NCBI RefSeq assembly: GCF_900105765.1
Contig: NZ_FNTX01000002.1
Coordinates: 310,001 to 374,000 of the forward strand
DNA from: Ruania alba
Lineage (GTDB): Bacteria; Actinomycetota; Actinomycetes; Actinomycetales; Beutenbergiaceae
Direction: 5' to 3'
DNA length: 64,000 bases
Made by a program: the position numbers and the translations under genes. Below, piece by piece: positions 33,187 to 47,339 of this stretch. The stretch's first letter is position 1; every line of letters starts with the position of its first letter. The notes beneath the pieces were generated by a model that was not told the origin of the DNA, did no database searches, and saw nothing but the letters and a program-made list of their open reading frames with translations.

Positions 33187-33236
33187 TTGTCCACAGATGT
33201 GGGTCCGATACCCCTTCCCGGGGCGCCTTGTCCACA
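33187..33236. other. Two exact DnaA-box sequences
   Basis: TTGTCCACA occurs exactly at 33187-33195 and 33228-33236, with a weaker TCATCCACA at 33257. This is the consensus described for high-GC actinobacteria. They lie in the 330-base gap upstream of the DUF222/HNH gene; no other gene is seen in that gap. Confidence 0.55.
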
Positions 33237-33305
33237 GGTGCACGCCCGATGCACCTTCATCCACAGGCGGAGGCGGACTTTTCGTTGCAATACCAACGAT
33301 TACTC

Positions 33306-33381: not shown

Positions 33382-34986
33382 ATGAGCACCACCACCCATC
33401 TGGGCACCACCCCGGCCGAGGCTGTCCGGGACCTGCTGAGCGAACACCTGACCGAGACCGATGCGCCCGGGAAGTTGGCCGTGGTCACCGCCCTGCTCGA
33501 TGACGTGCTCGAGACGGACCTGCCCGGGCTGCCCTCCGCGGTGCTGCCTGAGGTGGTGGGCGGGGTGGAGCAGGTGCGGCGCCGGTTGGACGCCCTCACC
33601 ACCGCGACGGTGTCCGCGGTGGAAGCCGATGGGACGTGGGCTGTGTCAGGGGCACGGACGATGGCGTCCTGGTGGGTCAACGCCACCGGGACTCACGGGG
33701 GTAAAGCCCGTGGCCAGGTGCACCTGTCCCGCACCCTGCGTAACCACCTACCCGCCACCACCATGGCTCTTCGTGCCGGGGTGATCAGCGGCGACCATGC
33801 CGCCGCGTTGGCCAGGCACGCCACCACCACACCCATCCTGCGGGAACGATTGGGCCACCCCGACGTGGGTGAGGACTTCCTCATATCTCAGGCGCGGGTG
33901 TTGGATGCGGACTCCTTCACCCGATTGGTGAAAACCTGGGCGGTGCGGGCTGACCCCGAGGCGGCGGAGCGGAACTGGCGTGAAGAGTCCGCCAAAGAGC
34001 ACCTCTTCGTCTCAGCCACCACCGCCGGGCGCCGCGTGGACGGGTGGCTCGATGACACCAACGGTCAGATCGTGGAGCAAGCCTTCGCCGCCGTCACCGG
34101 GGTGCCCGCCGCTGATGATGAACGCACCCCGTCCCAGCGCAACGCCCACGCCCTGATCACCCTCGCCCAGCACGTCCTCGACAGTGGCCAGTTCCAACCC
34201 ACAGCCCGGGTCCGCCCCCACCTGCTCGTCCACGTCCCCGCCGACACCCTGCACCGCCTGACCACCACACCCACCCCCATCAGTGATCACCGGCGCCCCC
34301 GCTGCACCTGCCACCACCCCACCAGCAGCAGTGCAAGTGGTGCGGGTGAGGTCTCGGGCGATAAGGGTGAGGCGGGCCTGCTCGAGACTGCACTGCCGGG
34401 TCTGGAGCACACGGCTGGTCATGCGCCGGGGTGCCCGGGCGACCCGGCCGCCCCGGTGATCAGCTCAACCATCGACCACGAACACCTGGTCGGCGCAGAA
34501 CCCGCGACCCTGGCTGATGGCACCCCCATCAGCCACGCCGAGCTCGCCCACCTGACCTGTGATGCCGAATTCACCCGCATCATCCTCAACCCCGACAGCC
34601 AACCCCTGGATGTCGGCCGGGCGCAACGCCTGCACACCGCCGCCCAGACCAAAGCGATCTGGGCCCGCGACCACCACTGCCAGCACCCCGGCTGCACCGC
34701 ACCACCAGGATTGGGCGAGATCCACCACAGCACCTGGTGGTCCCGCGGCGGCCACACCAACACCCACCACGGCATCCTGCTCTGCTGGTACCACCATCGC
34801 CTCGTTCATCAGCGCGATATCACCATCACCCGACACCACGACCACTGGCACTTCACCACACCCAGCGGCCACCCCATCAACTACCACCACCCACCACCCT
34901 GCGAACAACCAGCCATCCCACCCGAGGAACCAGAACCACCGGCACCACCGGGACCACCGGGACCACCCGTCATCCCACGGGAATAA
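33382..34986 (+). CDS. DUF222/HNH endonuclease-domain protein
   Basis: A 534-residue protein of the DUF222 (13E12-repeat-like) family. The N-terminal about 330 residues are helical DUF222, then a linker (residues about 310-360, acidic and Gly/Ser-rich), and a C-terminal HNH domain (CQHPGC, EIHHSTWWSRGG, LLCWYHHRLVH) with the zinc Cys and His residues intact. The tail is Pro-rich. GAGGAGG precedes the ATG. These genes are multicopy in actinobacteria and behave as selfish or mobile units; their biological activity is unknown. Confidence 0.92.
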   Translation: MSTTTHLGTTPAEAVRDLLSEHLTETDAPGKLAVVTALLDDVLETDLPGLPSAVLPEVVGGVEQVRRRLDALTTATVSAVEADGTWAVSGARTMASWWVNATGTHGGKARGQVHLSRTLRNHLPATTMALRAGVISGDHAAALARHATTTPILRERLGHPDVGEDFLISQARVLDADSFTRLVKTWAVRADPEAAERNWREESAKEHLFVSATTAGRRVDGWLDDTNGQIVEQAFAAVTGVPAADDERTPSQRNAHALITLAQHVLDSGQFQPTARVRPHLLVHVPADTLHRLTTTPTPISDHRRPRCTCHHPTSSSASGAGEVSGDKGEAGLLETALPGLEHTAGHAPGCPGDPAAPVISSTIDHEHLVGAEPATLADGTPISHAELAHLTCDAEFTRIILNPDSQPLDVGRAQRLHTAAQTKAIWARDHHCQHPGCTAPPGLGEIHHSTWWSRGGHTNTHHGILLCWYHHRLVHQRDITITRHHDHWHFTTPSGHPINYHHPPPCEQPAIPPEEPEPPAPPGPPGPPVIPRE

Positions 34987-41247: not shown

Positions 41248-41485
41248 CGCGAGTGCGGCCGATCTCGCTCACCAGGTGAGATATAGCCGAGAATGCCCGC
41301 ACTCGCGGTGCAATGAGTGCGGGCACTGGCAGGTGCACTGGCACGTGGATTCGGCGCAGTGCAGTGCAGTGCAGTGCACCTGCAGTGCGGTTGCAGCGCA
41401 GAGCAGTGCAGTGCAGTGCGGTTGCAGTGCGGTGCGGTGCAGTGCAGTGCGGTGCGGTGCGGTGCGGTGCGGTGGAACGATGCCC
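41248..41485. repeat. Nested-hairpin intergenic element, copy 1 (with expanded pentamer array)
   Basis: CGCGAGTGCGG (41248-41258) pairs perfectly with CCGCACTCGCG (41297-41307). Within the loop TCTCG (41263-41267) pairs with CGAGA (41288-41292) and CTCACC pairs with GGTGAG. A third arm GAGTGCGGG (41315-41323) can pair instead with CCCGCACTC. The element ends with GAACGATGCCC (41475-41485). Copy 2 lies at 55771-55863. It follows a plus-strand gene in both places, so it may act as a terminator. Confidence 0.75.
41356..41475. repeat. GCRGT pentanucleotide microsatellite
   Basis: About 24 tandem copies of GCAGT or GCGGT with a few interruptions, 120 bases in all. It sits inside copy 1 of the nested-hairpin element; copy 2 has only a 7-base segment there. 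No reading frame is supported. Confidence 0.9.
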
Positions 41486-44448: not shown

Positions 44449-44949
44449 ATGACATCAGCGATGCACCAGATCCTGTCGAGCGTGCGGACTTTCGAGGGCG
44501 TCCTCGAGCTGGCTCCCACGGCGGGGAGCCCCTATCCCGAACTCGCCTGGGGAGACCACTTCTTCTACTACGCACCCGACGGTACGGTCCCCCGGCGAGA
44601 GCAGCCGTACGCCACGATCGTCACGAAGGACTATCCCGACGACACCACCTCCGCCCTCGACCCGCCGGGTCGGTGGCGACTGAACATCCACGTGGGCAGG
44701 CGTCGGTTCGCTGAGCTGATCGGCTCCGAGCCAGCGGATGCTCTCGCGGTGGATGCGAGCGCGGCCGACCGCATCCTCCCCCACCCGGTGTACGGATCGT
44801 TGGGATGGGTGTGCGTGGTCAACCCCGAGCAGACCGTCCCGGTGATCGTGCCGCTCCTGCAGCACGCACATCAGGACGCGCGCGAACGGGCACTACGGCG
44901 ACGTTCTGACCCTGGCGACCGCGATGGTGGCGGCAGCGAGCCGCGATGA
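44449..44949 (+). CDS. DUF6194-family protein
   Basis: A 166-residue protein that I recognise as DUF6194 (WGDHFFYYAPDG, YATIVTKDYPDD, WRLNIHVG, LPHPVYGSLGWV). The family has no known function. ATG 44449 was chosen because it directly follows the MerR-type dyad; an internal ATG at 44461 would begin at the segment MHQIL that is conserved and may be the true start. Charged tail (RRRSDPGDRDGGG). Confidence 0.75.
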   Translation: MTSAMHQILSSVRTFEGVLELAPTAGSPYPELAWGDHFFYYAPDGTVPRREQPYATIVTKDYPDDTTSALDPPGRWRLNIHVGRRRFAELIGSEPADALAVDASAADRILPHPVYGSLGWVCVVNPEQTVPVIVPLLQHAHQDARERALRRRSDPGDRDGGGSEPR

Positions 44950-45033
44950 GGCGAACATCACGTGAATATTCGCCTGGAACCGGTGTGTCAGGCCGATCGC
45001 GGGGTCCCGGATCCGCCATTATGGGATCAGGCA

Positions 45034-45075
45034 GAGCGAAGGCCCCTCGGAGTAGGCGTCCGAGGGGCCTTGCTC
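45034..45075. terminator. Strong hairpin downstream of the DUF6194 gene
   Basis: AAGGCCCCTCGGA (45039-45051) pairs perfectly with TCCGAGGGGCCTT (45059-45071), extended by GAGC/GCTC. It can terminate the DUF6194 transcript from the left or a minus-strand transcript arriving from 45,850. The 45076-45240 interval holds nothing I can support. Confidence 0.75.
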
Positions 45076-45240
45076 GTTCTCGAGGTACACAGCGGCTGAA
45101 TGTCCGCCGGCGTCGCCCGGAGGGGGCGTCGCGACCAGGAGAACCGATCCACCAGGGCCATCACGGCTGGGTGCATCCACGCCCCCGCCCTCGTGCCCCG
45201 AGGGGCCACGGGCGGCGCCGGTGGAATCCAGGTGGACTCG

Positions 45241-45850
45241 AGTTCGTCGACCGGGTGTGCCATCCCTCAGCGTCCCGAGAGGGGCACGACGCTCGGGTGC
45301 TGGAGCACTGCTCCGTCACCCTCACGGTGCACGTCCTGAGCGTCCCCAGGGGTGCTCCCGGGTGGTTCCTGAGGTCCGTCCGGAAGGATCAGGCGCCGTC
45401 TCGGTTTCCCGATCCGAACACCATCCCCTGCTTCCGGGTTCATTCCCTGCGGAACCGCTCGGGTGTGGTCGTCCAGCTCTGCATTCGGTGAAGTCGCCCG
45501 AGGCGGTCTCCCACGCTCGGAGCACGTCTCCTCACCCGAAGGCGAGGATCCTTCCTCCATCGAAAGCGCTCCTCGGCCTCCGCCCCGCTGAGCCACTGGT
45601 TTCCCAGCTCCCCGACGGCACTTCGACCTCGAAGCACTGCACTCTCACATCACCGCCCGCTCGGTGGTCTCCCACCTCACGGTCCGGACACTTCCGACGT
45701 CGACTCCGGATCTGGGTGCCGGCCCGTCTTCCCCGGGTCTGCTGTCCGGGTCACCCCGTCCAACTCTCCGCGGATATCGGACCCGCATCCGAGAACCATC
45801 GACCGACGTCTTCTGCGACCGAATCGGTGAACTCGATGACTCATGTCTAG
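45241..45850 (-). ncRNA. Candidate structured noncoding RNA
   Basis: No convincing coding frame. Read on the minus strand, the interval contains many short stable hairpins: GGTGG-GAGA-CCACC (45663-45676), an 8-bp stem at 45618-45637, CTGG-GAAA-CCAG (45596-45607), CCTCGCC-TTCG-GGTGAGG (45530-45547), a bulged stem with GAGA loop (45498-45520), TCGG-GAAA-CCGA (45401-45412) and GGAGC-AGT-GCTCC (45302-45314). The loops are GNRA or UUCG only in this orientation, and the stems at 45618, 45530 and 45498 contain G-U pairs that would be A-C mismatches in the opposite transcript. TTGCGT (45872-45867) and TAGACA (45849-45844), 17 bases apart, could be its promoter. It does not look like RNase P RNA, tmRNA or a known riboswitch. 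Confidence 0.5.
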
Positions 45851-45914
45851 TCCTGTGACCTGGCTCACGCAAGAGGTTCTGCGGAGAATTTCTTGTCCCC
45901 AGGATGCCCACATC

Positions 45915-46216
45915 TTTGTCCACACGTTGACCTGCGACGATGCAGGTCGTCCACATGCCTGTGGAACAAATTTGTGGACAGACACCCGGTCGGCCACGGC
46001 CGACGCAGAGCGGAGGGCGCCGGCCACGCGGACCACACGTCCACCCGGTGAACAGGCAGTCAACCGGACACGCGCTCTGGACCGCACCCTGCTGCGAATC
46101 TGGGCCACCGTTCGCGCCGGCATTCACCGATCGTTCACCCATTGACGCCTCGTCCACACGCCCGACCTGCAATGATGCACGCTGTACACACACCTGTGGA
46201 CACCGGCTGTGGATAG
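45915..46216. other. Cluster of DnaA-box-like sites with a duplicated block
   Basis: One exact TTGTCCACA (45916-45924) and four one-mismatch versions (45947, 45973 reverse, 46150, 46195 reverse), plus weaker TGTGGATA at 46208. Two blocks, 45915-45980 and 46149-46202, share the order box, GACCTGCRAYGATGCA, box. They lie upstream of the NUDIX gene. There is no dnaA or dnaN nearby. Confidence 0.6.
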
Positions 46217-46238
46217 CCAGATCGGTACGATCGACCGT

Positions 46239-46673
46239 ATGCCTGATCAGCCCCGCCTCGTGGTCGCTGCCGCGATCGTGGACGACCTCGACGCCCCCAC
46301 TCAACTCCTCGCCGCCCGCCGCAGTGCGCCGAAGTCGTTGGCGGGACTCTGGGAGTTCGCCGGGGGCAAGATCGAGGACGGGGAACGCGACGTCGACGCC
46401 CTGCACCGCGAGCTGGCCGAAGAGCTGGGGATCGAGGTCACCATCGGCCGACCTATCCCCGGACCGACCGGGGCCGACTGGCCCATCCTGCACGGGCACG
46501 CGATGCGGATCTGGTTCGCTGCCATCGATCAGGGCACGCCGGAACCGCTCGCCGACCATGACGCGCTGCGCTGGCTCCCCCTGACCGACCCGTACGACGT
46601 GGCGTGGCTCGAGCCAGATCTGCCCATCGTGACGGCGGTTCGCCAGCACACTGCCCGGGGACCGGTGCGCTGA
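46239..46673 (+). CDS. NUDIX (MutT-like) pyrophosphohydrolase
   Basis: A 144-residue NUDIX hydrolase with the box GGKIEDGERDVDALHRELAE...EEL, matching GX5EX7REUXEEXGU. It resembles the (deoxy)nucleoside-triphosphate group that clears oxidised or abnormal nucleotides. ATG 46239 was chosen because conserved sequence starts there; TACGAT ends 7 bases before it, consistent with a leaderless transcript. Its upstream region contains DnaA-box-like sites, so it could respond to DnaA level. Confidence 0.88.
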   Translation: MPDQPRLVVAAAIVDDLDAPTQLLAARRSAPKSLAGLWEFAGGKIEDGERDVDALHRELAEELGIEVTIGRPIPGPTGADWPILHGHAMRIWFAAIDQGTPEPLADHDALRWLPLTDPYDVAWLEPDLPIVTAVRQHTARGPVR

Positions 46674-46727: not shown

Positions 46728-47339
46728 GTGCCCAAGATCATCGGCTCCACGCTCGCTGAGCATCGGGAGCATGTGCGGACCCAACTCTTCGACGCGCTCA
46801 CCCGGTTGATGACCGAGTCGGGGTTCGACGCAGTCAGCCTTGCCGACATCGCGGCTGCGGCTGGCGTAGGCCGCACGTCCGTGTACAACCACTTCCCGGA
46901 CAAGGAGTCGCTGCTCATCAGCTTCATCGAGCACGAGACCTCCAAGTACGTCACGGATCTGCGCGCGTCGCTGGCCGATGTGCAGGACCCGGAAGACCAG
47001 CTCCGGGTGTACGTACGTGAGCAGATCAACCTGAAGACGATCTACCACCTGGCCCCAGGCCCCGACCTGCGCTCCGTCGTCTCCCGCAGTACGCAGGTGC
47101 GGTTGCGCGAGCACGTTTCCCAGGTGGCCGATCTCCTGGCCGGGATCCTGCGCTCGGGGATCACTGCGGGCCGACTGCCTGCGCAGGACGTGGACGCCGT
47201 GGTGCCGCTGATCAACTCCTGCCTGTCGGGGCGCACCTTCCCGGACACGGAGCCGGAGCGGACCCGCGCGATCGAGGCCACCGAGCACTTCGTGCTACGC
47301 GCGGTCGGCCTCCGCGAGGCCGCTCTTTCCCCTGCCTGA
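46728..47339 (+). CDS. TetR/AcrR-family regulator
   Basis: A 203-residue regulator. The N-terminal HTH (LADIAAAAGVGRTSVYNHF) is at residues about 35-60; the rest is the helical ligand domain with no recognised ligand motif. GTG start follows AGGA at 7 bases spacing and an inverted repeat. It precedes a flavin monooxygenase-like gene in the same direction, which it may control. Confidence 0.9.
   Translation: MPKIIGSTLAEHREHVRTQLFDALTRLMTESGFDAVSLADIAAAAGVGRTSVYNHFPDKESLLISFIEHETSKYVTDLRASLADVQDPEDQLRVYVREQINLKTIYHLAPGPDLRSVVSRSTQVRLREHVSQVADLLAGILRSGITAGRLPAQDVDAVVPLINSCLSGRTFPDTEPERTRAIEATEHFVLRAVGLREAALSPA

Follow-up and report, generated by a model that had tools for sequence, protein, structure and literature searches.

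The datA and DARS loci of Escherichia coli are compact DnaA-box clusters away from oriC, the large RNAs OLE, GOLLD and ROOL occur in other hosts, and the RNA Ms1 is about 300 nt long in Mycobacterium smegmatis. According to passages of PMC9130861, Ms1 and scr3559 are RNAs of mycobacteria and streptomycetes that bind the RNA polymerase core; the Ms1-type RNA is about 230 nt long in S. coelicolor, Ms1 candidates are reported in Cellulomonas and Beutenbergia, and 6S RNA was not found widespread in actinobacteria. Corynebacterium possesses a 516-nt RNA bound to RNA polymerase, CoRP, and passages of the same paper suppose other RNA types binding the polymerase in, e.g., Micrococcus luteus (PMC11077062). 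As for DnaA, the terms "small RNA", "noncoding" and "non-coding" are absent from the main text of a review of this protein as a transcription factor (PMC8203912).

The window, which is the whole stretch of 64,000 nt from Ruania alba analysed here, carries on its minus strand a predicted transcript of about 808 nt (45837-45030), whose start was placed by rule a few nucleotides past the -10 hexamer and whose end lies just beyond a terminator. With a probability of roughly 0.7, we read this locus as encoding, in a gene that stands alone, a large structured RNA that would be regulated by DnaA, would act in trans and would represent, in Ruania and Occultella, a class of actinobacterial RNAs that is uncatalogued. 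The reading is drawn from sequence, namely from fold and strand, compensatory changes, promoter-like and terminator sequences of its own, a DnaA-box-like array and the same layout at unrelated loci elsewhere.

Like Ms1 and scr3559, as described in passages of PMC9130861, the RNA is actinobacterial, stand-alone and poorly conserved in sequence. Unlike Ms1, which lies beside a HAD-IB hydrolase gene, the RNAs of family f1 are 472-814 nt long (about 450 nt by eye in G008), have other flanks and are preceded by the array. An Ms1-type locus was rejected for the window, where the gene is flanked by a NUDIX gene on one side and by DUF6194, MerR and map genes on the other; 12 HAD-IB loci of seven genomes, searched with 1.5 kb flanks, were without a match to R2, our sequence-only profile of array plus promoter (four gaps beside HAD-IB genes were judged by eye). 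CoRP, so far as passages of PMC11077062 describe it, is likewise long, stand-alone, actinobacterial and missed by earlier homology searches; it differs, in a comparison by description only, in lying between tRNA genes, and DnaA is absent from the main text of that paper. The window RNA shares with 6S RNA a stand-alone and structured character, but at 808 nt, with a multi-branched minimum free energy (MFE) fold and no match to a 6S model of Rfam, it is unlike that RNA of about 180 nt (length from a passage of PMC11077062). OLE, GOLLD and ROOL, the ornate RNAs treated in PMC12286853, would resemble it in being large and multi-branched, and the window, unlike them, has no Rfam match of any kind.

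The earlier note recognised no Rfam family, and no catalogued family was found to cover the RNA. At curated thresholds, the 4227 models of Rfam 15 gave no match in the window and none in 15 loci from other families. Relaxing E to 10 brought up four weak matches in 44900-46300, all far below the cut-offs, and with E relaxed to 1 a single miRNA model appeared among seven loci examined. The only match to the RNase P RNA model RF00010 in the genome lies away from the window RNA (G000:C1:1386064-1386432). No DNA similarity to phages and plasmids was detected, and a search of the open-licence literature, covering the passages on Actinobacteria in the 104-motif survey PMC2864571, found no such RNA named. 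We rate the RNA as a new, uncatalogued class, whose nearest known kinds are Ms1 and CoRP.

The gene might supply its lineage with an RNA that binds RNA polymerase and functions like 6S, Ms1 or CoRP; to this analogy we give a small but real chance. The length of the RNA is of the order of the 516 nt of CoRP, and passages of PMC11077062 suppose further types elsewhere. The analogy is weakened by the HAD-IB loci without R2 matches and by the Ms1 candidates that passages of PMC9130861 place in Cellulomonas and Beutenbergia, so that some of the genomes studied here may hold an Ms1 besides an RNA of the window type. Some of those candidates in related families may also be RNAs of the class described here.

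The proposed stand-alone RNA gene possesses its own initiation and termination sequences. A -35 hexamer TTGCGT (45867..45872, minus strand) and a -10 hexamer TAGACA (45844..45849, minus strand), separated by 17 bp, make up a putative sigma-A-like promoter, in which CTTGC and CTA, respectively, are invariant across the 16 aligned upstream regions. The predicted intrinsic terminator, AAGGCCCCTCGGACGCCTACTCCGAGGGGCCTT (45039..45071, minus strand), is an exact pattern match with none expected in shuffles, and the terminators of the aligned loci resemble AAGGCCCCTCGGA...TCCGAGGGGCCTT. Promoter and terminator patterns were matched on the RNA strand in 15 of 16 loci, the window included, while L037 of G001 has neither by the same patterns. 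The common layout runs from a cluster of TTRTCCACA-like boxes through CTTGC, about 17 bp, a TA-rich -10, mostly an ATCGAG block and a variable middle to the terminator. The terminator loop, ACNCNTAC-like, is similar across families and is also seen in other terminator-like hairpins (in L082, and at the gene upstream of the RNA in L112), and may be a general actinobacterial form.

The earlier note had placed a structured noncoding RNA on the minus strand at 45241-45850. This interval does encode a predicted folded RNA but is incomplete, since the element starts at about 45837 and continues left to the terminator at 45071-45039, reaching some 210 nt past position 45241; the promoter, the array, the 3' third and the terminator had been missed. 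The claim itself is supported by a strand-specific folding excess, by promoter and terminator and by compensatory changes in homologues, all of which argue that the minus strand encodes such an RNA. For 45241-45850, the minus strand has an MFE of -311.9 kcal/mol against -269.6 in dinucleotide shuffles (sd 5.85; z -7.23; 0/20 as good), while the plus strand reaches only z -1.18 (1/20 as good). Over the 763 nt before the terminator, z is -5.5 in sense and -0.9 in antisense (40 shuffles). The three stems with G-U pairs, from which the strand had originally been argued, are each more stable as minus-strand RNA, with -8.4 vs -4.8 kcal/mol at 45618-45637, -10.4 vs -6.9 kcal/mol at 45530-45547 and -13.8 vs -9.2 kcal/mol at 45498-45520. 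The hairpins named at that time are present in the fold, and the MFE structure of the whole 808 nt contains the four GAGA/GAAA loops (45672-45667, 45604-45599, 45511-45506 and 45409-45404, closing pair included) as well as the one C(UUCG)G loop (45541-45536). As well, two hairpin loops, at 45345-45340 and 45275-45270, have GGGACGC in common, and by eye both copies recur in the 11 RNAs of the type found by R1, our model of the 5' domain, with one change in the second copy of L029.

A competing coding signal, which had been judged absent, was not found either: a Pfam scan at E 0.01 of three overlapping ORFs (45221-45850 and 44946-45491 on the plus strand, 45645-46649 on the minus strand), which left out four shorter minus-strand ORFs, found no family. 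In 51 of 100 mononucleotide shuffles of the window RNA, the longest stop-free frame is at least as long as in the RNA itself; two homologues have one that few shuffles equal (1/100 for L026, 3/100 for L024).

Homologues of the window element were matched by blastn in 17 of 59 genomes, its own genome counted. One region was fetched from each of the 16 others, and 15 of these were laid out with the window, L036 (G046, a 31-bp match) being left out. R1 matches 15 of the 24 genomes of family f1, including three from genus g8 whose E values are only 1e-5 to 2e-8; among 396 genomes of the order, searched with stricter filters, it again picks out these 15. A 22-mer of the RNA 5' block is present in 11 stretches of a named genome collection, six of which belong to R. 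albidiflava, R. rhizosphaerae, Ca. R. gallistercoris, O. aeris, O. gossypii and O. glacieicola and five to unrelated or unplaced bacteria. G001, which belongs to the genus of the window, keeps the array and has no RNA at the locus. In family members without an RNA at the map-NUDIX site (L126, L140, L141 and L142), the array was observed at another locus, with the promoter pattern unmatched and a strong terminator-like hairpin 370-490 nt beyond the array.

Folding of 15 RNAs, the window included and the terminator excluded, gave sense z values from -1.5 to -5.9, which are more negative than those of the antisense strand in all but L033. The two strands are nearly equal in L035, and neither L033 nor L035 exceeds its shuffles by more than a weak margin. 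On the antisense strand, z goes as far as -3.8 (L031) and -3.7 (L029). An alignment of the 5' domain of 11 RNAs, sequence-based like the other RNA alignments here, yields a 27-pair structure with 98.7% of 297 cells paired, scored on the very sequences from which it was derived. Changes on both sides occur in seven of the 27 pairs, the covariation score of 0.336 (0.241 in shuffles) was equalled by 0 of 500 shuffles, and sliding the partners lowers pairing to 24-44%; in further pair types, the alignment does not exceed its shuffles (308/500). The helices are kept through compensatory changes.

Helix P1 would join the RNA 5' end, UCGAGUUC (45829..45836, minus strand), to GAACUCGA (45238..45245, minus strand; 212-226 nt from the 3' end) with 8/8 pairs, and it is in the MFE fold too. 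Its 3' strand varies among GAACUCGA, GGACUCGA, GGACUUGA and GAGUUCGA with all eight standard pairs kept in 10 of 11 R1-type RNAs and 7/8 in L025, a count made without shuffle control and with G008 left out of the scoring. A second 8/8 site for the 5' end exists in four RNAs, and the three g8 RNAs pair only 7/8, at differing places. The core hairpin (45717..45787, minus strand; 45778-45787 with 45717-45726, plus a helix inside) has 100% of cells paired in helices 2 and 3 of the alignment, one pair changing from C-G to G-C in three rows. Helix H1 (45685..45821, minus strand; 45815-45821 with 45685-45691), which closes the 5' domain, has seven pairs and 97.4% of cells paired, with one pair appearing as G-C, G-U or A-U among rows and one mismatch in the window itself. 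In the GNRA hairpin of the domain (45664..45675, minus strand), all four pairs change on both sides among the 11 rows.

The array and promoter extend far beyond the Ruania type. R2, built from 16 aligned upstream regions (15 of f1 and that of G039 from f17; 71% mean identity; 150 model positions), has matches at E 0.01 in 160 of the 396 genomes searched in the order, many only partial, and among them are 22 of the 24 of f1; by a hand count among the matches listed, at least about 90 genomes are matched from model position 10 or lower to 125 or higher. In the class, 51 of 394 genomes match at E 0.001, five of them from the window's own order, and whole-length matches outside the order but in the same class come from 17 genomes of f38 and five of f54. 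In a phylum-wide draw, 4 of 396 genomes match at E 1e-4, namely G000, G039 and two with partial matches. The window itself, with array and promoter at the fixed spacing, scores E 7.9e-29, a value obtained for a member of the training set.

Outside the Ruania-type set, 67 loci were examined (15 + 40 + 12; L106 is the G039 locus already in the alignment). By pattern, 44 have promoter and terminator, the 852-nt L170 being doubtful among these stretches; 10 have a promoter without terminator; and 13 are without a promoter match, some of which (L143, L146) look like arrays beside a protein gene. Flanking ORFs have a Pfam family in 9 of 20 scanned, including TRCF and MazG at L105, D-Tyr-tRNA deacylase at L107, GT2 and a cytidylyltransferase-like family at L109, CtaG at L118, heme oxygenase at L116, an ABC transporter at L110 and polysaccharide deacetylase at L112. 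The gene thus has differing surroundings but a constant promoter. In G294:C1 (L148) and G392:C1 (L147), two and three array-promoter matches, respectively, follow one another on a single strand within some 3 kb and are possible tandem RNA gene copies in family f10. The RNAs of f17 range from 265 to 844 nt, and in one of 574 nt (L109) the 3' part contains, by eye, about three copies of a unit some 40 nt long.

The RNA bodies, too, are recognisable across families. Most of the 44 promoter-terminator stretches share a core, GGANAACG, roughly 70-300 nt after the start, and many wider-class loci have hairpins whose loops read YGACG and CGUCR. A body model made from 14 RNAs of family f9 only (R3) and run on 56 sources matched at E <=0.001, just downstream of the promoter (best E of each family in brackets), in the one f13 locus (3e-12), four of four f54 genomes (3.3e-9), five of six f38 genomes (1.8e-7), 2 of 10 f10 loci (1.1e-6) and 5 of 12 f17 loci (8e-5). 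Matches outside any RNA reach E 0.007-0.008 (L031 106-199; window 47031-47131), and weaker matches therefore mean little. On 297 whole genomes, R3 gave 21 matches, and all but that in G270 start 41-224 bp downstream of the R2 match of the same genome and on its strand; 8 of the 21 come from training genomes, and of the 13 others 12 agree with the R2 position (eight in f9, three in f10, one in f13). R3 found nothing inside 45030-45837, nothing in G000 in the whole-genome run and nothing convincing in any Ruania-type RNA, so the tie of the window RNA to the wider class rests on array, promoter, terminator and 5' start.

In wider-class RNAs outside the Ruania type, we read the two hairpins as forming a loop-loop interaction. 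The comparison covered 48 loci, those of f1, f3, f32, f38, f45 and f54 having been excluded beforehand; 38 have hairpin A (YGACG) and 33 have hairpin B (CGUCR) as well. Four of the five loop bases are fixed by the search patterns, and at the fifth, where Y=C goes with R=G and Y=U with R=A or G, the loops are complementary in 32 of the 33 (U-A 17, C-G 9, U-G 6; Fisher p 0.0015, relatedness ignored). In the lone non-pairing locus, L114, the hairpin chosen by the rule lies 238 nt away, and the nearer one gives C-G. Alternative picks differ for L111 (A) and L138 (B), and a few, e.g. L144, are terminator-like. In genus g45, the pair is U-A at six loci and C-G at L107, and C-G also at L114 when its nearer hairpin is taken.

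Upstream of the RNA promoter, the window possesses a DnaA-box-like array (45893..45981), with boxes of at most one mismatch to TTRTCCACA at 45893, 45916, 45947 and 45973 and weaker ones between. A second, partial array lies beside the start of the divergent NUDIX (MutT-like) gene (46141..46218; partial R2 match at G000:C2:356141-356218; boxes at 46150, 46195 and 46208). Seven of the 20 window boxes with at most one mismatch fall within about 330 bp (45893-46216), and a three-box pattern with up to three mismatches occurs twice in the whole genome, both times at this locus. The 16 upstream regions contain 19 exact boxes, 49 with at most one mismatch (0.74 in mononucleotide shuffles) and 99 with at most two (8.4). 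Six positions recur, at alignment columns 10+, 23+, 36-, 68-, 80- and 91-, 11-13 columns apart within each half, and are filled with at most two mismatches in 16, 15, 16, 15, 9 and 11 of 16 rows, respectively; many hold two-mismatch boxes, e.g. 10/15 at column 23, 8/15 at column 68 and 8/9 at column 80. The spacing from array to promoter is fixed in this alignment. Judging from the consensus, DnaA would bind these boxes.

Elsewhere in the window, three DnaA-like boxes on one strand (33187-33265) lie upstream of a 534-aa ORF starting at 33382, which we take to be HNH-like, and a tandem GCAGT array (5-bp unit, about 23 copies; 15-bp period, 7.5 copies) occupies 41356-41474.

The array itself might be the functional element, titrating or recycling DnaA in the manner of datA or DARS, with the RNA as a passenger or with its transcription as a device that opens the array. 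Like those loci, it is a compact box cluster away from oriC, lying about 300-430 kb from dnaA in G002, G003, G004 and G017, if the contigs are circular. The arrays kept by G001 at the NUDIX-gene locus without the RNA, the second copy beside the NUDIX gene and the arrays of L143 and L146, seemingly without RNA promoter, would all fit this explanation. Unlike datA and DARS, however, the array stands at a fixed spacing from the promoter of an RNA gene, which is found at unrelated places in other genomes, and the RNA helices are kept by compensatory change in bodies that remain recognisable across families. We regard this explanation as rather improbable. A replication origin at the locus was rejected, with dnaA at the contig start in G002, G003, G004, G013 and G017 and no GC-skew switch at 45-46 kb.

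That the RNA is a very large cis-acting leader or riboswitch of map, the gene of methionine aminopeptidase, is very unlikely. The start of map, recognised by eye, does follow the terminator in several relatives, but in 15 of 16 loci the RNA ends in a strong terminator, the convergent DUF6194 gene, which is the 3' neighbour, and the MerR gene intervene in the window, and mfd/MazG, D-Tyr-tRNA deacylase, GT2 and other genes lie next to the RNA in other families; the leader was therefore rejected on terminator and gene order. An antisense regulator of dnaA mRNA, for which a feedback loop is suggested by the DnaA boxes only, is just as hard to sustain: in four of four genomes, the dnaA leader is equalled or surpassed in its pairing with the RNA by 86-95.5% of 200 random stretches, drawn from a pool that is mostly coding and whose composition may favour them. 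Finally, stable folds are common at high G+C, but a chance GC-rich intergenic sequence or a decayed gene, contradicted by the shuffle controls, strand asymmetry, compensation and conserved promoter and terminator, can practically be dismissed.

For the stand-alone RNA gene, the following mechanism can be proposed. The housekeeping sigma factor would transcribe it, and DnaA on the array would raise or lower its transcription, so that the RNA level would follow the replication state. The RNA might then act in trans via a protein bound to its GNRA-rich core, on a global target such as RNA polymerase, the latter being a guess by analogy with Ms1 and CoRP. As a tentative generalisation, to which we lean less than to the reading of the window itself, structured RNAs of one class, found in several orders of Actinomycetes (more than one) and united by a promoter under direct DnaA control, may broadcast the state of replication initiation to a global target, with a body that evolves and grows freely round a loop-loop-locked core while array and promoter remain constant.

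A widely kept RNA gene would thus apparently have stood uncatalogued in a phylum where, according to passages of PMC9130861, 6S RNA was not found widespread. If the control by DnaA holds true, the RNA would link the copying of the chromosome to gene expression.
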